Shown here piece after piece: positions 857 to 51,508 of a DNA stretch of 64,000 nt. The stretch comes from Candidatus Poribacteria bacterium. Lineage in GTDB: Bacteria > Poribacteria > WGA-4E > WGA-3G. The notes under the pieces are model-generated. The model was not told the DNA's origin. It saw nothing but the letters and a program-made list of their open reading frames with translations, and searched no databases. Location: contig VXMD01000077.1 in NCBI GenBank assembly GCA_009841255.1, positions 1 to 64,000 of the forward strand, given 5' to 3'. Position 1 is the first letter of the stretch. Each line of letters starts with the position of its first letter. The translations under genes were made by a program, and so were the position numbers.

Positions 857-1119
857 CTCCAGACGACTTTTCTGACCTAAGTGCTACTGACAAAATTTTA
901 GGCATCTGGAGACCACTTTTCACTGAAGTCCGTTGGGGATCCACAAGGTTTTGTAGCCTATCCTGTTAGGTTGAGCACTTTATGCACAAACTCACAGTTT
1001 ATGCTACAAGATCCTTTTTCAAATTCATCTAAAATACGGACTGGAGACCCCTACCTTTAGGTAGTGGGAGGAAAGTCCGCTCTCGTGTGTAAGGCCACAG
1101 CGTTTTTTGAAAAAAACAC

Positions 1120-1148
1120 TTGACAAAATTAATAAATTGTGATTTAAT
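1120..1148 (+). promoter_or_regulatory. Sigma70-type promoter of tnpB copy 1
   Basis: TTGACA at 1120-1125, a 17-bp spacer, then TTTAAT at 1143-1148. The predicted start of transcription coincides with the 5' strand of stem P1 of the leader RNA. Confidence 0.7.
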
Positions 1149-1152
1149 AGAT

Positions 1153-1234
1153 GTATCACGTTGGCAGACATTTCGAGCATTGTCGCTTGACAATGTGTCT
1201 GCCACCCACTCGAAAGGGGTTAAAGGCGTGATAC
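1153..1234 (+). ncRNA. Pseudoknotted tnpB leader RNA, copy 1
   Basis: P1 pairs GTATCACG (1153-1160) with CGTGATAC (1227-1234). P2 pairs GGCAGACA (1163-1170) with TGTCTGCC (1196-1203). P3 pairs CATTGTC (1178-1184) with GACAATG (1189-1195) around a GCTT loop. The 7-nt bulge TTTCGAG (1171-1177) pairs with CTCGAAA (1209-1215), forming a pseudoknot. The purine-rich GGGGTTAAAGG between the pseudoknot and P1 is conserved in copies 3 and 4. The tnpB ATG follows 10 nt after P1. Pairing is seen directly; the role (translational control, RNP component or ssDNA signal) is unknown. Confidence 0.8.
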
Positions 1235-1244
1235 GTGAAACTCC

Positions 1245-2396
1245 ATGAGGAAACGAAAAAAGAAAAAGAATCGCAGAACATACAAGTTCCAACTGCGCGA
1301 ACACCCCAAGAATGTGCGTCTCGGGAATATGCTTGACGACCTTGCGGATGTCCATAACCACTTTCTTGCGTTGGAAAAGCGATATTACCGTAGATACGGG
1401 AAATATGCGGGGCGTTTTCGCCTGCAACCGCACTTGACGAAGTTGCTCGAACGCACGAAGCAACACTGGGCATGGATACCGAGGGATACGCTTGACGCAG
1501 TGATTATCCGTATCCATGTCACTTATGAACGATTCTTTGATGGACTCGGCGGACTTCCAAAGTTCAAGCGTAAAGATCGCTATCGTTCTGCGAAGTTCCC
1601 ATCGGCGTATCTCCTTGAAGAAGGACGTGTCCGGCTTTCTTTCAAAGCGTGGGACGACCGTCAGCACCGCTTGAAGTTCAACAAACGCTGGTTCTCTTTT
1701 CACCAACACCGCGACTATGAGGGTAAAGTTTGCTATATCCAAATCCTTCGCGATCGTGTTGGAACCTATTGGCTTTACGTGATTACAGATGCTTCCACAA
1801 CCGAACCTTGTTCTGCTACAGGTGAGAGCGTAGGAATAGACTTCGGTATGGAGACCTATTTGACATTTAGCACCGGTGAAAAGAAACACTCGCCACAATT
1901 TTTCAAACACGCCTTGAAAGAACTTCGAACACTCAACAAATCTATCAGCCGAAAGGTAAAAGGTTCTCACAATTGGTGGCGGTGTGTCCGAGAACTTGCG
2001 CGGTTGTATCGGCATATAACGAACCAACGCAAGGACTGGCACTACAAGGTTGCGACCGACCTGTGCAAAAGGTTTGATACGATCGTGACCGAGACGCTGA
2101 ACCTTTCGGGCATGAAACGGCTTTGGGGACGGAAAGTCTCCGATCTTGCCTTCGGTCAGTTTGTTGAGATATTGAAGTATAAGTGTCAAAAACATGGGCG
2201 TCACTTGCTCCAAGTCGGTCAATGGACCCCGTCAACGAAACCGTGTAGCGACTGCGGACATACAAACGAAAATCTTTCTCTTTCCGATAGGCAGTGGACA
2301 TGCCCCGAATGTGGCTCTCACCACGACCGAGACATCAACGCTGCGATAAACATCTTGAGGGAAACCGCCTTGGGTCCCTCTGTGGAGCAGACGTAA
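1245..2396 (+). CDS. tnpB: TnpB RNA-guided nuclease, copy 1
   Basis: IS605 OrfB/TnpB of 383 aa. The RuvC residues appear intact: Asp in GIDFGMET (about residue 196), Glu in VTETLNLSG (about 282) and Asp in DRDINAAIN (about 361). A CxxC-CxxC zinc ribbon (CSDCG, CPECG) lies between the last two. TnpB proteins cut DNA next to a TAM using an omega RNA from the 3' end of their own element. An in-frame TGA at 1236-1238 blocks any longer start, so ATG 1245 is the start. There is no well-spaced Shine-Dalgarno; the nearest AAAGG is 18 nt upstream, inside the leader RNA. Closely related to copies 3 and 4. Confidence 0.92.
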   Translation: MRKRKKKKNRRTYKFQLREHPKNVRLGNMLDDLADVHNHFLALEKRYYRRYGKYAGRFRLQPHLTKLLERTKQHWAWIPRDTLDAVIIRIHVTYERFFDGLGGLPKFKRKDRYRSAKFPSAYLLEEGRVRLSFKAWDDRQHRLKFNKRWFSFHQHRDYEGKVCYIQILRDRVGTYWLYVITDASTTEPCSATGESVGIDFGMETYLTFSTGEKKHSPQFFKHALKELRTLNKSISRKVKGSHNWWRCVRELARLYRHITNQRKDWHYKVATDLCKRFDTIVTETLNLSGMKRLWGRKVSDLAFGQFVEILKYKCQKHGRHLLQVGQWTPSTKPCSDCGHTNENLSLSDRQWTCPECGSHHDRDINAAINILRETALGPSVEQT

Positions 2397-7157: not shown

Positions 7158-8570
7158 ATGCTATTAACAATATCAACCACATATTCTCCTGCGACAGACC
7201 TCGGTTATCTGTTGCATAAACACCCAGCGCGAATTCAATCCTTTACGCTTCCCTTTGGTCAGGCGCATGTCTTTTATCCGGCGGCGCGTCCCGAAAAATG
7301 CACGGCGGCACTACTTCTCGACGTCGATTCGGTTGGACTTATCCGCCGCCCTCACGGGCAATTTGCAGAAAATTTCGCACTGGCGCAGTACGTCACTGAT
7401 CGTCCGTACGTCGCTTCATCGTTTTTGAGTGTCGCAATATCGAGAGTGTTTGGCAGCGCGTTGTCCGGTAAGTGCAAAGAACGTCCAGAACTCGTGAAGA
7501 CTGCAATTCCTCTAAGCGCGCGGTTATCCACTCTACCGTGTCGAGACGGAGAGAAATTGTTGCGACGACTTTTCGAGCCGCTCGGTTATACAATCGGAGC
7601 AGAACGGCACACCCTAAACACACGATTCCCGGATTGGGGCGAAAGTCCCTATTTTACTGTAACACTCGAAAAGACCTGTTCCTTGAGCGAACTCCTCATC
7701 CATCTTTACGTTTTGATCCCTGTGCTTGACGATGAAAAGCACTACTGGGTTGGCGATGCGGAGATCGAAAAACTATTAAAGCATGGTGATAACTGGCTCG
7801 CCGCGCATCCGGAACAAGAATCTATCGTCCGTCGGTACTTAAAACATCAACGGGGGCTCACTCGTGAGGCACTCGCCCACTTGGAGGCACTCGCCCAATT
7901 GCGCGAAGAGGATGTTCAAGAAACTAACGAGACAGTCCAAGCACAAGAAGAACAGGTTGAAGAACGTATGGGGCTGAACGAAGTCCGCTTGCATAGGGTC
8001 ACTGAGGTCCTCAAGCAGTGTAACGCCAAGCGCGTTCTCGATTTGGGGTGCGGTGAAGGAAACCTTCTTCGTAGATTGTTGGCTGAAGAACAGTTCGAAG
8101 AGATCGTCGGAATGGACGTTTCACATCGCATACTAAAAATCGCGCAAGAACGACTTCATTACGACCGGTTACCTGAGAAACAGCAAAAACGGCTTCGCTT
8201 GTTCCAAGGTTCCCTCGGCTACCGAGATGAACGTCTAACTGGATACGATGCAGCTGCGGTTATAGAGGTAATCGAACACTTAGATGTGCCGCGACTTGCG
8301 GTGTTTGAACGGGTTCTTTTTGAGTTTGCTTGCCCCAAGACGGTTGTGTTGACGACGCCGAATATAGAATACAATGTAAAATTTGAGAATCTGCAGGCTG
8401 GCCCCTTTCGACATAAAGACCACCGGTTCGAGTGGACACGAAACGAATTTCAATCGTGGGCGGCAAGGGTCGCCAAACACTTCGGTTACGCCGTTGCATT
8501 TCACCCAATTGGACCAGAGGCTGAAGATGTTGGTCCGCCAACACAAATGGCAGTCTTTACCGTTGTTTAG
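7158..8570 (+). CDS. hen1: 3'-terminal RNA ribose 2'-O-methyltransferase Hen1
   Basis: Bacterial Hen1 of 470 aa. The N-terminal half (MLLTISTTYSPATDLGYLLH) is the Hen1-specific domain that activates the Pnkp ligase. The C-terminal half is a SAM methyltransferase with VLDLGCGEGN (about 293), EVIEHLD (about 368) and FRHKDHRFEWTR (about 415), the last two supplying the metal ligands typical of Hen1. In the known system Pnkp and Hen1 repair ribotoxin-cut tRNA, and Hen1 methylates the 2'-OH at the break so the repaired RNA resists recutting. The start matches the conserved N-terminus. pnkp lies downstream on the same strand but is separated by an inserted TnpB element. Confidence 0.93.
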   Translation: MLLTISTTYSPATDLGYLLHKHPARIQSFTLPFGQAHVFYPAARPEKCTAALLLDVDSVGLIRRPHGQFAENFALAQYVTDRPYVASSFLSVAISRVFGSALSGKCKERPELVKTAIPLSARLSTLPCRDGEKLLRRLFEPLGYTIGAERHTLNTRFPDWGESPYFTVTLEKTCSLSELLIHLYVLIPVLDDEKHYWVGDAEIEKLLKHGDNWLAAHPEQESIVRRYLKHQRGLTREALAHLEALAQLREEDVQETNETVQAQEEQVEERMGLNEVRLHRVTEVLKQCNAKRVLDLGCGEGNLLRRLLAEEQFEEIVGMDVSHRILKIAQERLHYDRLPEKQQKRLRLFQGSLGYRDERLTGYDAAAVIEVIEHLDVPRLAVFERVLFEFACPKTVVLTTPNIEYNVKFENLQAGPFRHKDHRFEWTRNEFQSWAARVAKHFGYAVAFHPIGPEAEDVGPPTQMAVFTVV

Positions 8571-8745: not shown

Positions 8746-9840
8746 TTAAGTTGGACACAGGTTAATAGCAGCATTTAGGTCTCTGTCGCATTCAAAGCCA
8801 CATTCGTGGCAGTGATATATGCGTTCAGAGAACGTCAAGTCTACTTTCTTGTGTCCACAGTGGCTACAGGTCTTGGAACTGGCGAAGAATTGCGGTGCTT
8901 CGGTGACCGGTATTCCGCGACGGTCTGCCTTGTATTTGAGTTTCGTTAGGAAACCACCGAGTGCTGAATCCGATAATGCTTTGGCAAGTTTTCGGTTCTT
9001 TAGCATATTGGTAACCTTAAGTGTCTCAATACCGATAGCACTTGCTTTATGGACAATCCGAATTGTCGCTTGGTGGTGAGCGTCCTCACGGATATTGCTG
9101 ATACGGGCATGAACACCAGACAGCATGGCTTTTGCCTTATACCAATTCTGACTGCCTTTCCGTCTACGAGAGAGCCGACGGTTCGCACGTGCCAGTTTTC
9201 GCTCATATCGCTTGAGTGGGCGTGGGTTGTCGTAGGTATCGCCATTAGAGCATGTAGCAAGTGTATTGATACCCACGTCAATGCCTATCGGTTGCTTACA
9301 ATCGTCGAACAGAAGGGGTTGGTGCTTATAGTTGTTGCTCTCCAGCCGTCTAACGGTGATAGACGCATACCACTTGTTGTTATGCTTGGACACAACAACT
9401 TTGGTAATTTCACCAGTCCATTGCAGTTCTTCACGCATGCGTATCCAACCGATTTTAGACAAGTTGATCCGCTTTTTATAGACTTCAACAGTTCCTTCGC
9501 CGTTGTCTGCTTGGTAGGAGCATTTACCAGATCGGTTCTTATAGACGGGGAACTTGTTTTGTCCTTTTTTCCAACGCGTGACAGCGTCACCTAAATCTCG
9601 GATTGCGTTTTTAGAGGCGTTTTGTGAGAGTTCCTTGCACCAGTCAAACTTATCAGACTTGACAGTGTTAAACTCTTTTCGTATATCCTGCTCGGTTCGC
9701 CATTCGTCGTTATCTAAACCTACTTTGAATGACGACAGAGCAAAGTTGAACGCAACACGCCTGTAACCGCAATGTTTAGACATACAAGTAGATTGCTTGT
9801 TATTTGGATTGAGTTCTATCTTCTGTGTTCGTAAAGTCAT
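8746..9840 (-). CDS. tnpB: TnpB, copy 2 (divergent; C-terminus cut by an in-frame stop)
   Basis: A 364-aa TnpB of another subfamily. The RuvC Asp is in GIDVGINTL (residue 188), Glu in AIGIETLKV (about 280) and Asp in CDRDLNAAIN (about 356), with a zinc ribbon CSHCG/CHECG. The core is therefore intact. The chain ends at NLCPT, where a TAA interrupts a frame that carries on into a recognisable family tail, so it is probably a recent nonsense allele. Function may persist because the missing tail lies beyond the catalytic core. The start is fixed by ATG 9840, nine bases after P1 of the leader RNA. Confidence 0.8.
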   Translation of the reverse strand: MTLRTQKIELNPNNKQSTCMSKHCGYRRVAFNFALSSFKVGLDNDEWRTEQDIRKEFNTVKSDKFDWCKELSQNASKNAIRDLGDAVTRWKKGQNKFPVYKNRSGKCSYQADNGEGTVEVYKKRINLSKIGWIRMREELQWTGEITKVVVSKHNNKWYASITVRRLESNNYKHQPLLFDDCKQPIGIDVGINTLATCSNGDTYDNPRPLKRYERKLARANRRLSRRRKGSQNWYKAKAMLSGVHARISNIREDAHHQATIRIVHKASAIGIETLKVTNMLKNRKLAKALSDSALGGFLTKLKYKADRRGIPVTEAPQFFASSKTCSHCGHKKVDLTFSERIYHCHECGFECDRDLNAAINLCPT

Positions 9841-9849
9841 GGTTATCAG

Positions 9850-9933
9850 GTATCAGGCTTTATCCGTGTGTAAGTCGGAGGCAAGCACATTACCAAGCGG
9901 TAACGCTTACACTGCTGGTCTCCAACCTGATAC
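9850..9933 (-). ncRNA. Pseudoknotted tnpB leader RNA, copy 2
   Basis: On the reverse strand P1 pairs GTATCAGG (9933-9926) with CCTGATAC (9857-9850). P2 pairs 9923-9913 with 9887-9877 as GGAG/CTCC and AGCA/TGCT around a 3-nt mismatch. P3 pairs CGTTACC (9905-9899) with GGTAATG (9894-9888) around GCTT. The bulge GTGTAAG (9912-9906) pairs with CTTACAC (9874-9868). The architecture is identical to the other copies although the TnpB is divergent and the primary sequence differs. Confidence 0.8.
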
Positions 9934-9966: not shown

Positions 9967-10040
9967 ATTAGATTTGATATAATTTGACTATATTTATATA
10001 GATTTTTGGCGACTGCAACTTACCCGAGAAAGTTATGATT

Positions 10041-12608
10041 ATGAAAATTCCTGAACCTTCACTTGTACTCCTCATTGGACCTTCAGGTTCCGGCAAATCT
10101 ACCTTTGCGCGTAAACATTTTAAGCCGACCGAAATTCTCTCGTCCGATTTCTGCCGAGGGCTTGTTTCGGACGATGAAACCGACCAGGCTGCAACGAACG
10201 ATGCATTTGAAGTGCTGCGTTTCATCGCAGCAAAACGACTCGCTGCTGGGAAATTGACGGTCATTGATGCCACGAACGTCCAGGCAGAAGCACGAAAACC
10301 TTTGCTCGCGCTGGCACGTAAATATCATTACTTAACGGTCGCTATTGTGTTTAACATGCCTGCCAAACTTTGTCAGGAAAGAAACGAGGCACGTCCTGAC
10401 CGCAATTTGAAACCGCATGCCATCCGCCAGCAGAGCCAGCAACTGCGGCGCTCACTACGAGGACTCAAACGCGAAGGTTTTCGGCAATTTACCTATGTGA
10501 TGTCCACACCCGAAGTCGCTGAATCTACACGCGTCGAGCGGCAGCCATTGTGGACAAACCGCGCAGATGAGCACGGACCGTTTGACATCATTGGTGATAT
10601 TCACGGCTGTTTCGATGAACTTGTTGAATTGCTTGGAGAACTCGGTTATGAAATCTCGACACAACCAGGTGGGGACACCCTTGTTGCGTCACCGCAGGGT
10701 AGGAAAGCGATTTTCGTCGGGGATTTTGTTGACCGGGGTCCGAAGGTCCCCGAGGTATTACGTCTGGTCATGGACATGCAAAAAACCGGAGCAGCCCTCT
10801 GCGTGCCCGGGAATCATGATGTAAAGCTGGTGCGTGCGCTTCGCGGCAAAAATGTGAATCCGACACATGGATTAACGGAATCACTCTCTCAATTGGAGAA
10901 AACATCAACCGCATTCAAAACGCAAGTCGCGAAATTCTTGGATGGTTTGGTAAGCCACTATGTACTTGACAACGGAAGATTGGTCGTCGCACATGCTGGA
11001 ATGAAGGCGGAATTACAAGGGAGAGCATCGCGGCACGTGCGGGAATTCGCACTCTACGGTGAAACAACTGGAGAAACCGATGAATTCGGCTTACCAATGC
11101 GGATTGATTGGGCTGACGAGTATCGCGGCACTGCGATGGTGGTCTATGGACATACACCAGTCGCTGAACCGCAATGGGTAAATCGAACAATCAACATTGA
11201 CACCGGATGTGTTTTTGGCGGCAAACTGACTGCATTGCAATACCCTGAAAAAGAGCTCGTGTCTGTCCCCGCACGCCAGACCTATTATGAACCGACTAAG
11301 CCGCTTCTTGTAGGAGGGAACTCCGATTCCCGACTCCGTACTGCCAAGACACAGCATGCCGGTAATATTCTAAACATTGATGATGTACTGGGAAAGCGTG
11401 TTATCGGCACACGGTTACACCACAACGTAACAATTCGTGAAGAAAATGCAATAACCGCGCTTGAAGTGATGAGCCGTTTTGCTGTAAATCCAAGATGGCT
11501 TATATACCTTCCACCGACAATGTCCCCAACCGAGACGACAAACAGACCTGGTTTGCTTGAACATCCAACGGAGGCGTTCACCTATTATCGCAGACAGGGT
11601 GTATCCAAAGTCATCTGGGAAGAAAAACACATGGGATCACGCGCTGTTGTCGTCGTTTGTCGGGACCCAGAAACCGTAAAAAAACGGTTCGGTGTCGCAG
11701 AGAACACCCTTGGCATCTGTTACACACGGACCGGCAGGCGATTCTTTAGTAATGCTGCCATTGAAACCGAGTTTTTGAGACAGGTGAAAACCGCTGTAGA
11801 TAGAGCCGGTTATTGGGAGGCCCTCAAGACAGATTGGATCTGTTTTGATTGCGAGTTAATGCCTTGGTCGGTCAAGGCTCAGCAGTTGTTACAGCAACAA
11901 TATGCCCCAGTAGGGGCATCGGCCCGTATTGCTTTGGGAGAAGCCATTGCTTCCTTAGAAACCGCTGCTGAACGAGGTATTGAAGTAAATCCTATATTGG
12001 ATGACTATCGTCTACGCGCCGAGGCAGCAACCGAATACGTCAAGGCTTATCAGCAATACTGTTGGCAGGTCCAATCTATTGCAGATCTGAAACTCGCACC
12101 CTTCCACCTACTCGCGACGGAAGGGACCGTGTACTTCGACAAAGATCATCTGTGGCACATGAAGATGCTTACAGAACTTTGTCAACATTCTGAGAACGAC
12201 TTGTTGTTCGCAACCTCCTACGGGGTGGTTGATGTAACTGACGACACAAGTCAAACTGAAGCGATCCATCGGTGGGAAGAACTTACCCGACAGGGCGGTG
12301 AAGGCACAGTCATCAAATCTCTGGATTTTATCGTTCAGGGCAAACGAGGATTGGTACAACCCGCTGTAAAGTGCCGCGGGCGTGAATACCTGCGAATCAT
12401 CTATGGACCTGAATATACACTGCCTCAGAACTTAGAACGTCTCCGTTCCCGTGGACTCTCTCATAAACGTTCCCTCGCCCTTCGAGAATCTGCGTTGGGT
12501 GTTGAGGCACTCGAGCGGTTCGTTCACCGTGAACCTTTGTCTCGTGTTCACGAATGCGTTTTCGGAATTTTAGCACTCGAAAGTGAGGCGGTTGATCCAA
12601 GGCTCTGA
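10041..12608 (+). CDS. pnkp: Polynucleotide kinase-phosphatase with ligase domain (Pnkp)
   Basis: Three domains in the order of bacterial Pnkp. The 5'-OH kinase has the P-loop GPSGSGKST. The metallophosphoesterase runs from about 180 to 400 with GDIHGC, GDFVDRGP, PGNHD and VVAHAG. The ligase/adenylyltransferase has the nucleotidyl Lys in EEKHMGSRA (about 530). The enzyme heals and seals broken RNA with Hen1. The length of about 855 aa is full size. ATG 10041 is preferred over ATG 10035 because GAGAAAG is correctly spaced from it. The TnpB insertion separates it from the hen1 promoter; a TATAAT at 9978-9983 with a poor -35 is the only local promoter candidate. Confidence 0.92.
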   Translation: MKIPEPSLVLLIGPSGSGKSTFARKHFKPTEILSSDFCRGLVSDDETDQAATNDAFEVLRFIAAKRLAAGKLTVIDATNVQAEARKPLLALARKYHYLTVAIVFNMPAKLCQERNEARPDRNLKPHAIRQQSQQLRRSLRGLKREGFRQFTYVMSTPEVAESTRVERQPLWTNRADEHGPFDIIGDIHGCFDELVELLGELGYEISTQPGGDTLVASPQGRKAIFVGDFVDRGPKVPEVLRLVMDMQKTGAALCVPGNHDVKLVRALRGKNVNPTHGLTESLSQLEKTSTAFKTQVAKFLDGLVSHYVLDNGRLVVAHAGMKAELQGRASRHVREFALYGETTGETDEFGLPMRIDWADEYRGTAMVVYGHTPVAEPQWVNRTINIDTGCVFGGKLTALQYPEKELVSVPARQTYYEPTKPLLVGGNSDSRLRTAKTQHAGNILNIDDVLGKRVIGTRLHHNVTIREENAITALEVMSRFAVNPRWLIYLPPTMSPTETTNRPGLLEHPTEAFTYYRRQGVSKVIWEEKHMGSRAVVVVCRDPETVKKRFGVAENTLGICYTRTGRRFFSNAAIETEFLRQVKTAVDRAGYWEALKTDWICFDCELMPWSVKAQQLLQQQYAPVGASARIALGEAIASLETAAERGIEVNPILDDYRLRAEAATEYVKAYQQYCWQVQSIADLKLAPFHLLATEGTVYFDKDHLWHMKMLTELCQHSENDLLFATSYGVVDVTDDTSQTEAIHRWEELTRQGGEGTVIKSLDFIVQGKRGLVQPAVKCRGREYLRIIYGPEYTLPQNLERLRSRGLSHKRSLALRESALGVEALERFVHREPLSRVHECVFGILALESEAVDPRL

Positions 12609-42117: not shown

Positions 42118-42198
42118 TATCACACTGGCAGACAGTTGAAGCACAATCGCTTGATTGTGTGTCTGCCTACCCACTTCAACGGGGTTAAAGGTGTGATG
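42118..42198 (+). ncRNA. Pseudoknotted tnpB leader RNA, copy 3
   Basis: P1 TATCACAC (42118-42125) with GTGTGATG (42191-42198, one G-T pair). P2 GGCAGACA (42127-42134) with TGTCTGCC (42160-42167). P3 CACAATC (42142-42148) with GATTGTG (42153-42159) around GCTT. Pseudoknot GTTGAAG (42135-42141) with CTTCAAC (42174-42180). P3 and the pseudoknot differ from copy 1 on both strands. Confidence 0.8.
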
Positions 42199-42209
42199 TG
42201 TGATATACC

Positions 42210-43319
42210 ATGAAAACCTACAAATATCCGTTTTATGATCAATCCAATTGTATTCGGCTTGGCAACTTGCTTGATGATATGTGGCAAGTCCACGAGTGTT
42301 TCCATAAGTGGCAACGTCAGCGATATAAGGACGGACTGCCGTATGCGAACTACGAGGCAATGTGCCTTCACGTAACCGATTTGAAACGGACGACATACCC
42401 GCATTGGAAAGCGTTGCCGAGTCAAGCGATACAAGAGGAGTTGCGGCGCATTGATAAGGCGTATATCCGATTTTTCAAAAAACTTGGGGGTAGACCGAAA
42501 ATCAAGAAACGCCATAAGTTTAAATCCTTCACACTGAAACAAGCGGGTTGGTCTCTGAAAGACAATCGCCTCACCCTCAATTTCAGAAAATGGAATAACG
42601 GTAAATGGCGACATGATAAAGTTGCTTATACGTTCCATAAGCACCGTGAGTTTGAAGGAAATATCCGCCGTATCACGATAAAGCGTGACGCGTGCGGTGA
42701 TTATTGGCTCTACATACTCACGGACTTTGTAGAAACAAAGCCTCTGCCAACAACGGGTAAGAGTGTTGGGGCAGACTTCGGTATGAAAGACGCGTACTTG
42801 ACACTCAGCACGGGTGAAAAGAAACAACACCCACAACCTTTGAAACAGTCCTTGAACGAACTTCGGTCTCTCAACAAAAGTCTTTCTCGAAAGATTAAGG
42901 GTTCTAACGGTTGGTGGCGATGTGTCAGACAACTCGCACGCCTGTATCGGAAAATCACGAACCACCGCAAAGACTTTCATTGGCAACTCGCCTCTGAACT
43001 CTGTAAGAAGTTTGATACAATCATTATTGAAACCTTGAACCTTGGCGGCATGAAACGACTTTGGGGACGGAAAGTCTCTGATCTTTCCTTCTATCAGTTT
43101 GTTGAGATATTGAAGTATAAGTGTCAAAAACATAAGCGTCAACTCATTGAAATCGGGCAATGGACACCCACTTCTAAACCTTGCTCCGATTGTGGATACC
43201 ATAACGAAAATTTAACTCTGAACGATAGGCAGTGGACATGTCCTGAATGTGGTTCTCACCACGACCGAGACATCAACGCTGCGATAAATATTTTGCGGGT
43301 GGGGATAGCCGTTGCCTAA
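42210..43319 (+). CDS. tnpB: TnpB RNA-guided nuclease, copy 3
   Basis: 369 aa, same subfamily as copies 1 and 4. RuvC residues: Asp in GADFGMKDAYL (about 186), Glu in IIETLNLGG (about 272), Asp in DRDINAAIN (about 353). The zinc ribbon CSDCG/CPECG is intact. An in-frame TGA at 42201-42203 fixes ATG 42210 as the start. The protein is shorter at the C-terminus than copies 1 and 4 and its 3' flank differs, so its omega RNA scaffold is distinct although the terminal hairpin is conserved. Confidence 0.92.
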   Translation: MKTYKYPFYDQSNCIRLGNLLDDMWQVHECFHKWQRQRYKDGLPYANYEAMCLHVTDLKRTTYPHWKALPSQAIQEELRRIDKAYIRFFKKLGGRPKIKKRHKFKSFTLKQAGWSLKDNRLTLNFRKWNNGKWRHDKVAYTFHKHREFEGNIRRITIKRDACGDYWLYILTDFVETKPLPTTGKSVGADFGMKDAYLTLSTGEKKQHPQPLKQSLNELRSLNKSLSRKIKGSNGWWRCVRQLARLYRKITNHRKDFHWQLASELCKKFDTIIIETLNLGGMKRLWGRKVSDLSFYQFVEILKYKCQKHKRQLIEIGQWTPTSKPCSDCGYHNENLTLNDRQWTCPECGSHHDRDINAAINILRVGIAVA

Positions 43320-48548: not shown

Positions 48549-48667
48549 TTTGCTGAAGAAAAGAGAAGAGAGATCGCAGGCGGTGTTGAGAACTGGAATC
48601 GATTCTCTTTTGTCTGTGGCAAAGAGAAGATCGCTTGCACCCTATTGTATACAGAACAGGAGATCAA

Positions 48668-49561
48668 ATGTCCAAACATCAACTTTATTTTGGCGATAAT
48701 CTTGAGATTCTTCAAACCTATGTTCCTGATGAAAGCGTCAATCTGATTTATATTGATCCACCCTTTAACACGGGAAAACTCCAAAAACGGACGGAGATCC
48801 ACGTCGAACCCGATGTTGATGGCGATCGGGTTGGCTTCCAAGGAAGAACGTATCGAACCCTCACAGGTAAAACCAGGCATTATACCGATAAGTTTGAAAG
48901 TTCGGATGCTTACTTGGAGTTTTTGAGACCTCGGTTTGAGGAGGCATATCGTGTACTTCATCCACACGGCAGTTTCTTCCTCCACATTGATTATCGTGAG
49001 GTCCATTATTGTAAAGTAATGCTTGACGAGATTTTTGGACGAGAATCGTTTATCAACGAAATTATCTGGGCTTACGATTACGGCGGCAGACCCAAATCGA
49101 AGTGGCCTGCGAAACACGATAATATTTTATGGTATGCCAAAACGCCGGGCCACTATACCTTCAACTTTGATGAGATGGACAGAATTCCGTATATGGCACC
49201 CGGGTTAGTCGGCAAGGCAAAGGCGACGCGTGGTAAAACGCCGACCGATGTCTGGTGGCATACTATTGTTGCCACCAATGGGAACGAGAAGACAGGTTAT
49301 CCAACACAAAAGCCGCTCGGAATCCTTAACCGGATCGTCAAGGTCCATTCATCACCGGGTGATATCCTTTTAGATTTTTTTGCCGGCAGCGGCACACTTG
49401 GTGAATCTGCCGCACTTCACAATCGCTCCTCAATTTTAATCGATAACAATATACCTGCAATTGAAATTATTATGGAAAGATTGGCGTTTTATGGAATTGA
49501 ACTTATCAACGGTGATTATAAGGAATTGATGGAGAAAACCAATGAGAGATCTGCCTCTTGA
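48668..49561 (+). CDS. Site-specific DNA methyltransferase (beta class, DPPF)
   Basis: About 297 aa. The catalytic motif IV (LIYIDPPFNTGK) comes before the SAM motif I (ILLDFFAGSGTLGESA), the beta-class order. It methylates adenine N6 or cytosine N4 of a recognition site; the target is unknown. AGGAGAT precedes ATG 48668, the start of MSKHQLYFGDNLEIL. The 3' end overlaps the next gene by 20 bases, so it is co-translated with a probable restriction endonuclease. Confidence 0.9.
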   Translation: MSKHQLYFGDNLEILQTYVPDESVNLIYIDPPFNTGKLQKRTEIHVEPDVDGDRVGFQGRTYRTLTGKTRHYTDKFESSDAYLEFLRPRFEEAYRVLHPHGSFFLHIDYREVHYCKVMLDEIFGRESFINEIIWAYDYGGRPKSKWPAKHDNILWYAKTPGHYTFNFDEMDRIPYMAPGLVGKAKATRGKTPTDVWWHTIVATNGNEKTGYPTQKPLGILNRIVKVHSSPGDILLDFFAGSGTLGESAALHNRSSILIDNNIPAIEIIMERLAFYGIELINGDYKELMEKTNERSAS

Positions 49562-50108: not shown

Positions 50109-50212
50109 AATGGTGCTTTATCTAAAATACGGACTGGAGATCCCTACCTTTAGGTAGTGGGAGGAAAGTCCGCCCTCGTGTATGAGACAACAGCATTTTT
50201 TCAAAAAAACAC

Positions 50213-50246: not shown

Positions 50247-50330
50247 TATCACGTTGGACCGACATGCATAGCATTACCGCTTGGTAATGTGTCGGTCCCA
50301 CCTACTATGCAAGGGGTTAAAGGCGTGATA
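50247..50330 (+). ncRNA. Pseudoknotted tnpB leader RNA, copy 4
   Basis: P1 TATCACG (50247-50253) with CGTGATA (50324-50330). P2 GGACCGACA (50256-50264) with TGTCGGTCC (50290-50298). P3 CATTACC (50272-50278) with GGTAATG (50283-50289) around GCTT. Pseudoknot TGCATAG (50265-50271) with CTATGCA (50305-50311). P2, P3 and the pseudoknot all differ from copy 1 with both strands changed together. Confidence 0.8.
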
Positions 50331-50341
50331 CGTGATAAACC

Positions 50342-51508
50342 ATGAAAAAACAAAAACAGCATCGCAGAACGTATAAAGAAAAGATACGTAATCACCCGCA
50401 GAACATGCGCGTGGGCAACATGTTCGATGACCTTGAAGATGTACATAACCACTTCTTGGCATTGGAGAAACGCTACTATCGCATCTACGGTAAATACGCC
50501 GGCAGATACAGGTTGCAACCGCACTTGACCAAGTTGCTCGAACGGACGCATCACCACTGGGCATGGATACCGCGAGATACGCTTGACGCTGTGATTATCC
50601 GTATCCATATCGGATATAAGCGGTTCTTTGATTGGCTGGAAAAAGGCAGGCGCGGGAGGCGTGTGGGTCCCCCGAAGTTCAAACGCCGCGGCAAACTCCG
50701 TTCTGCGAAGTTCCAAACGGGATACAAACTCACTGAAGGCACGGTGCGCTTGTCTTTCAAGCGATGGTGTTCCGTCAAAGAGAAATTCGTCTTTATCCGT
50801 CGAAATATCTTGTATCACCACCATCGCGATTGGGAAGGGAACGTCCAGTATATCCAAATCGGCAGGGATGTTGCCGGTGAGTATTGGCTTTATGTCGTAA
50901 CAGATAGTACGTCGAAAAAAGTGCTGCCCGCTACAGGTGAAAGCGTAGGGGTAGACTTCGGCATAGACACCTATCTGACCCTGAATACAGGCGAGAAGAT
51001 ACACCACCCGCAACCCTTGAAACAGTCCTTGAACCAACTCCGAAAACTCAACAAAATCCTTTCTCGGAAAGTGAGAGGTTCTGGCAATTGGTGGCGTGCT
51101 GTCCATGAGTTGGCACGACTCCACGTCAAAATTGCCAACCAACGCCGAGATTGGCACTACAAGCGTGCGACCGACCTGTGTAGGCGGTTTGATACCATTG
51201 CCACCGAGACGCTGAACCTTGAGGCAATGAAACGTCTTTGGGGACGCAAAATCTCTGACCTTGCCTTCTACCAGTTTGTTGAGATTCTGAAGTTCAAGTG
51301 TATCAAACATAACCGTGAGTTCCTTCAGGTCGGACGGTGGACACCTACGACAAAGCCTTGTTCGGATTGCGGACATCACAATAGCAACCTTTCTCTTTCG
51401 GATCGGCAGTGGACGTGTCCTGAATGTGATTCACACCACGATCGGGATGTCAACGCTGCGATAAATATATTGAGGGCTGCCTTGGGTCCCTCTGTGGAGC
51501 AGACGTAA
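50342..51508 (+). CDS. tnpB: TnpB RNA-guided nuclease, copy 4
   Basis: 388 aa, close to copy 1 over most of its length. RuvC residues: Asp in GVDFGIDTYL (about 203), Glu in ATETLNLEA (about 287), Asp in DRDVNAAIN (about 367); the zinc ribbon CSDCG/CPECD is intact. An in-frame TAA at 50336-50338 fixes ATG 50342. A short KKGRRGRRVG-like insertion (EKGRRGRRVG, near residue 100) distinguishes it from copy 1. It appears functional by sequence. Confidence 0.92.
   Translation: MKKQKQHRRTYKEKIRNHPQNMRVGNMFDDLEDVHNHFLALEKRYYRIYGKYAGRYRLQPHLTKLLERTHHHWAWIPRDTLDAVIIRIHIGYKRFFDWLEKGRRGRRVGPPKFKRRGKLRSAKFQTGYKLTEGTVRLSFKRWCSVKEKFVFIRRNILYHHHRDWEGNVQYIQIGRDVAGEYWLYVVTDSTSKKVLPATGESVGVDFGIDTYLTLNTGEKIHHPQPLKQSLNQLRKLNKILSRKVRGSGNWWRAVHELARLHVKIANQRRDWHYKRATDLCRRFDTIATETLNLEAMKRLWGRKISDLAFYQFVEILKFKCIKHNREFLQVGRWTPTTKPCSDCGHHNSNLSLSDRQWTCPECDSHHDRDVNAAINILRAALGPSVEQT

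Follow-up and report, generated by a model that had tools for sequence, protein, structure and literature searches.

We identified a structured RNA leader that precedes the four tnpB genes of a 64,000-nucleotide stretch of Candidatus Poribacteria DNA (hereafter, the window) and that recurs, in hundreds of previously uncatalogued copies, across the phylum, well beyond the four copies of the initial annotation. The leader probably represents a new class of translational switch that acts in cis and serves mobile-nuclease and defence genes. Work on TnpB has so far centred on the guide RNA at the 3' end; at the 5' end, hundreds of tnpB genes additionally bear this conserved, putatively regulatory leader.

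Fold, covariation and promoter position of the leader

The four window leaders (Table 1) share one fold, as originally described. Model R2, trained in part on these leaders, was run without filters over the whole window and returned exactly the four at 65-94 bits, the next match scoring 13 bits. From the 5' end, each comprises P1 (7 bp), P2 (at least 8 bp), a bulge of 7 nt and P3 (7 bp with a 4-nt loop), followed by a short P4 hairpin (usually CCC/GGG), a conserved GG[AT]TAA(A) stretch and the 3' strand of P1. Leaders of this kind stand 11-18 nt ahead of the start codon. The loop of P4 holds seven nucleotides that pair with the P2/P3 bulge and form a pseudoknot, which is a loop-bulge kissing contact because its 3' strand sits in the P4 loop. 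The initial annotation quoted the pseudoknot strands correctly in all four copies and paired the bulge with a segment 3' of P2; the pairing stands, but the partner strand is actually in the P4 hairpin loop. Its limits for copy 1 (1153-1234) also located the leader, with the start now corrected by one base, whereas the P3 loop that it called an invariant GCTT is so in the four window copies only, with GCAA, ACTT, CCTC, TCTC or ACAT elsewhere. The genes behind the four window leaders encode TnpBs with OrfB_IS605 and Cas12f1-like TNB domains, and leader-bearing TnpBs as a whole span more than the two subfamilies first recognized.

Table 1. Leader RNAs and associated features in the window
Feature	Position	Strand	Details
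Hairpin apart from leader, upstream of copy 1 promoter	1037..1079	+	CGGACT..AGTCCG; probably transposon left end
Promoter of tnpB copy 1	1120..1148	+	TTGACA 1120-1125, TTTAAT 1143-1148; 5 nt before leader
Leader RNA copy 1	1154..1233	+	from sequence, alignment and R2 scan
Copy 1 P1	1154-1160/1227-1233	+	
Copy 1 P2	1163-1170/1196-1203	+	
Copy 1 pseudoknot	1171-1177/1209-1215	+	TTTCGAG/CTCGAAA
Copy 1 P3	1178-1184/1189-1195	+	
Copy 1 P4	1205-1207 with GGG in 1216-1219	+	
P1'' copy 1	1234..1240	+	CGTGAAA, 4 nt before ATG
tnpB copy 1	1245..2396	+	OrfB_IS605 and Cas12f1-like TNB
tnpB copy 2	8746..9840	-	different TnpB family
P1'' copy 2	9844..9850	-	CCTGATA
Leader RNA copy 2	9851..9932	-	pseudoknot GTGTAAG/CTTACAC
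Leader RNA copy 3	42118..42198	+	pseudoknot GTTGAAG/CTTCAAC
P1'' copy 3	42199..42205	+	TGTGATA
tnpB copy 3	42210..43319	+	
Hairpin apart from leader, upstream of copy 4 promoter	50130..50172	+	probable transposon left end
Leader RNA copy 4	50247..50330	+	pseudoknot TGCATAG/CTATGCA
P1'' copy 4	50331..50337	+	CGTGATA
tnpB copy 4	50342..51508	+	

The claim that the helices change on both strands while staying complementary holds far beyond chance. Among 44 distinct genus- and family-level copies, standard pairs make up 99.3% of paired cells (82.9% in shuffles), and 25 of the 32 pairs change on both sides, with 239 double-changed cells, compared with 14.1 such pairs in shuffles. When the partner strand was slid by one to three columns, pairing fell to 26-44%. 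A set of 22 copies from the source genome, taken by itself, gives 98.2% of cells paired and 21 of 32 pairs changed on both sides. The leader is thus confirmed as a structured RNA by compensatory changes in excess of both the shuffled and the slid controls.

Of the helices, the pseudoknot varies most, and every pair type, or nearly every one, occurs at its four central pairs. The 48 copies compared have 34 distinct pseudoknot 7-mers, and differences per site reach 0.45 in the pseudoknot compared with 0.17-0.32 in P1, P2 and P3. Such hypervariability could be read as a code that is particular to each copy and either blocks or mediates pairing among transcripts of different copies, by analogy with antisense control in plasmids. 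We regard this as highly improbable, as neutral compensatory drift is the simpler account and the pseudoknot strands match the rest of their own element 19 times against 23.6 expected. Pseudoknot strands as guides to, or matches within, their own element were also rejected, since swapped strands gave more matches.

Leaders were divided into class A, class B (a diverged class found with model R3 that stands before other genes) and a further diverged set C. A -10 box, assigned by consensus match and not by a mapped start, precedes P1 by 5-6 nt in most copies (class A, 51 of 53; class B, 49 of 65; set C, 10 of 16), so that the first predicted transcribed base falls at P1. The -10 position fits the promoter placement of the initial annotation and its view that tnpB transcripts begin with a structured RNA distinct from the omega RNA of TnpB, which lies at the 3' end of the gene. 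Wobble cells inside the helices, read on the sense strand, comprise 30 G.T and 4 A.C, as expected if the transcribed strand folds. The leader lies inside IS605-type elements near their left end, and a single-stranded DNA fold acting in transposition, like the IS200/IS605 subterminal hairpins, had been suggested. This now appears extremely improbable given the wobble bias and the start of the leader at the expected transcription start, as well as its occurrence before non-transposon genes, away from transposon ends. The transposons moreover have separate hairpins, probably their left ends, the one upstream of copy 4 being the same element as that upstream of copy 1.

Distribution over genomes and genes behind the leader

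The source genome (5.73 Mb) contains 43 TnpB matches. In the regions upstream of 30 of these TnpBs, one script found 21 full leader copies, to which L016 is added; diverged versions precede L003, L018, L019, L022 and L029, the leader or its 5' part has been lost at L006/L017, L024 and L324, and the TnpB genes L326, L328, L329 and L330 carry none. Model R2 gave 36 matches in this genome. Over 85 Candidatus Poribacteria genomes, covariance-model copies number about 810 (summed over the match table) and occur in 58 genomes; R2 matches are confined to two families, and among these 85 no genome from any other family of the order, class or phylum had one. The association with tnpB recognized in the window is borne out by this broader search, TnpB being encoded directly downstream of 54 of the 60 class-A copies with enough downstream sequence.

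Among the pattern matches listed, nearly all are from Candidatus Poribacteria, which are sponge symbionts. With the stricter filters applied to large sets, one of 299 Pseudomonadota genomes had a match, and that genome had been chosen for its copy. A genuine leader followed by a TnpB-like gene (L228, 7094-7134) is present on a contig from a sponge gammaproteobacterial MAG; it is the sole copy in that genome and represents either a recent horizontal transfer or a binning error. A pattern match in Robiginitomaculum (L214) lacks the pseudoknot and was discarded as a chance hit, and a phage origin was dropped, with no exact class A or class B pattern match in 2.9 million viral contigs.

The class-B sample comprises 65 distinct elements that are mostly best-scoring matches and not a random draw: 21 precede small secreted coiled-coil proteins (whose loci have the leader in only some cases), 40 precede other genes and four have no clear ORF nearby. 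The first and, where close, second genes behind those 40 leaders encode 60 proteins, among them 13 N6_N4 and two D12 DNA methyltransferases, two BglII-like and one MvaI/BcnI-like restriction enzymes, SNF2/ResIII-type helicases and FRG-domain proteins; 13 of the 60 match defence methyltransferase models. The leader also heads a gene for an AbiTii protein, and diverged copies stand before FRG/TPR proteins. DNA methyltransferases make up 15 of the 60 class-B-headed proteins and 1 of 37 window proteins (Fisher p = 0.003), an enrichment that is only indicative because the window background is small.

The TnpB-specific reading of the initial annotation does not survive this gene content, the same fold heading restriction-modification, abortive-infection and secreted-protein genes while some TnpBs of the same genome lack it. 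One explanation of that kind is autoregulation, in which the leader would be bound by TnpB (or by its complex with omega RNA) to control TnpB translation, in keeping with the position of most class-A leaders directly before TnpB and with a P2 sequence conserved beyond the needs of pairing. However, L328 and L329 lack a leader although they are close to the leader-bearing L327, and one TnpB family is served by leaders of quite different sequence. With the fold placed before methyltransferase, restriction, AbiTii and secreted-protein genes and missing before some TnpBs, the suggested binding of TnpB cannot be its general role, and we consider autoregulation improbable.

Two further loci were noted. 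A class-A body with a class-B P1 (TACCAGT/ACTGGTA) stands before a non-tnpB gene (L264:4634-4674), and a class-A leader (L256:2067-2107) is followed by a short ORF whose beginning, judged by eye, resembles a GIY-YIG nuclease (MGYIYKITNTTNGKS); in the guessed frame, this ORF had no match in a Pfam scan.

A second partner strand at the start codon and the proposed switch

The 3' strand of P1 (P1') is repeated at or just before the start codon as a further strand, P1'', which was absent from the initial annotation (for example, CGTGATA CGTGATA TACC ATG). In 49 of 53 class-A copies P1'' begins at the base right after P1'. The P1 strand exists in many versions (TATCACG, TATCAAG, TATCGTG, TATCAGG, TATCACA, TATCTCG, TATCCG(T), TACCGTT, TGTCTTTC, TGTCCTTT, CGGCTTTC, GCATAGTT and others), and P1'' usually follows suit. 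In class A, P1'' matches its own P1 over a mean of 6.3 nt and P1s borrowed from other copies over 4.4 nt; the corresponding values in set C are 7.0 and 4.0. In the alignment, 94.5% of P1:P1'' cells are paired and 35 are double-changed, compared with 7.0 in shuffles. P1, P1' and P1'' change together at three variable positions, and the counts at P1 position 6 are identical in both pairings (CG 23, AU 10, UA 6, GC 5). P1'' is also present in class B, where the P1 core (CCAG) hardly varies and matches to own and swapped P1 are alike (4.60 and 4.62), so this class affords no independent covariation test of P1''.

The likeness of adjacent P1' and P1'' could in part reflect slippage. This is not a full account, because the repeats are also found separated around a Shine-Dalgarno-like stretch: at L018, L019, L022, L124, L132 and L327 P1' and P1'' flank a purine-rich stretch of this type (AAAGGAA, GGGAGTAA, GGGAATAA, AAAAAGGAGTTA), and P1'' contains the ATG. 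The idea of a mini-ORF spanning P1'/P1'' was given up because its start codon is not conserved.

The covariation and position of P1'' point to a mutually exclusive pairing that would cover the start region, and they lend support to translational control as the possibility raised in the initial annotation. The leader would begin at the first transcribed base and, presumably acting as RNA, would control translation of the gene behind it. P1 would close a compact domain formed by the P2-P3 arm, P4 and the kissing contact between the P4 loop and the P2/P3 bulge, and its 5' strand would have two competing partners, P1' with the domain closed or P1'' at or over the start codon. With the domain folded, P1 would hold P1' and the start region would be free, a state that we infer to be ON; with the domain unfolded, P1 would take P1'' and the start region would be hidden (OFF). 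The choice could be made by a metabolite, a protein or folding kinetics. Joint change of three strands fits the need of such a switch, and stability alone hardly explains it. Further points in its favour are the close computed energies of the two registers (given below), the -10 box ahead of P1, the sense-strand wobble bias and the placement before TnpB and defence genes. Counted against the switch are the lack of a clear Shine-Dalgarno sequence in most class-A copies and two class-B leaders that lie 145-300 nt before large secreted repeat proteins (L059:1501-1585 and L106:315-399); P1'' is also weak in a few copies (L118, L135). At L059 and L106, P1'' is soon followed by a run of eight T, and these two may be a version of the switch that acts by terminating transcription.

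The main rival to the switch is a passive 5' structure that receives no external signal, either an mRNA stabiliser or a kinetic timer in which P1:P1' is the first pairing to form as the RNA is transcribed and translation is shut off afterwards by slow exchange to P1:P1''. The two registers are nearly isoenergetic, P1' being favoured by a median of 1.4 kcal/mol when each was enforced by hard constraints and the pseudoknot was left out of the folding. The pseudoknot sequence is almost free to vary, and there is no obvious ligand pocket, since few nucleotides are invariant. All of this would suit a passive structure, but the conserved GG[AT]TAA after P4 suggests a specific tertiary contact or binding site, and we judge the passive reading rather unlikely.

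For the translational switch, the sharing of one leader by unrelated genes implies that the trigger should be general in the cell, and TnpB is unlikely to be a general signal. It can be tentatively speculated that a riboswitch-like class senses such a signal and switches translation of TnpB and of restriction-modification and abortive-infection genes together, which would unite mobile and defence functions in a post-transcriptional regulon. The distribution suggests that one translational device was recruited to control DNA-cutting and defence enzymes, which could do harm if expressed without restraint. With its triple covariation of one strand and two partners, the switch model lends itself to direct testing, and the broad alignment is a starting point for a ligand or protein search.

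Known RNAs, related systems and neighbouring genes

No Rfam 15 family matched the window at the gathering score, and lax scans of the leader regions and 24 other loci gave nothing at any leader, which answers the comparison with Rfam proposed in the initial annotation. Motifs of structured RNA in the vicinity of IS605 orfB genes have been suggested earlier, and any in Rfam 15 are covered by these scans. In our literature searches, which covered open-licence papers, no leader of this kind was described. Translational riboswitches and ribosomal-protein leaders likewise have a 5' domain whose closing helix competes for a strand covering the start, whereas here the 5' strand has two partner copies and the RNA is outside all Rfam classes. 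The TnpB omega RNA (reRNA) is likewise a structured RNA of tnpB elements; however, it is at the 3' end and ends at the guide, while the leader precedes the start codon, has no adjoining guide and heads unrelated genes. HEARO, the guide RNA of IscB at the transposon end, is likewise a structured RNA upstream of a transposon nuclease gene, yet the leader has no Rfam match and is not limited to one nuclease family. IStrons combine a group I intron with an IS605-type element and thus also carry a 5' structured RNA in a tnpB-bearing element (PMC4227781); the leader, in contrast, is about 80 nt long and has no group I intron signature, with no Intron_gpI match at any leader in the Rfam scans of the window, leader regions and loci. 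The timing of restriction-modification is controlled by C proteins, which are protein transcription factors (PMC2997769, PMC4824078); the leader may be a comparable device for safe expression, in the form of an RNA structure instead.

Several neighbouring genes were also noted. In the window, a protein with nucleotidyltransferase and HEPN domains is encoded at 92-853, and an N6_N4_Mtase DNA methyltransferase (48635-49558) lies just upstream of tnpB copy 4, with no leader ahead of it in the R2 scan. The second tnpB copy sits between Hen1 and Pnkp RNA-repair genes (7158-8567 and 10035-12605; Hen1_L E 1.5e-112, PNKP_ligase E 2.7e-178) and appears to interrupt this pair. In another Poribacteria family, a tmRNA match of 116.8 bits adjoins a weak same-strand group I intron match (L119:1736-2683) near a leader-bearing tnpB.
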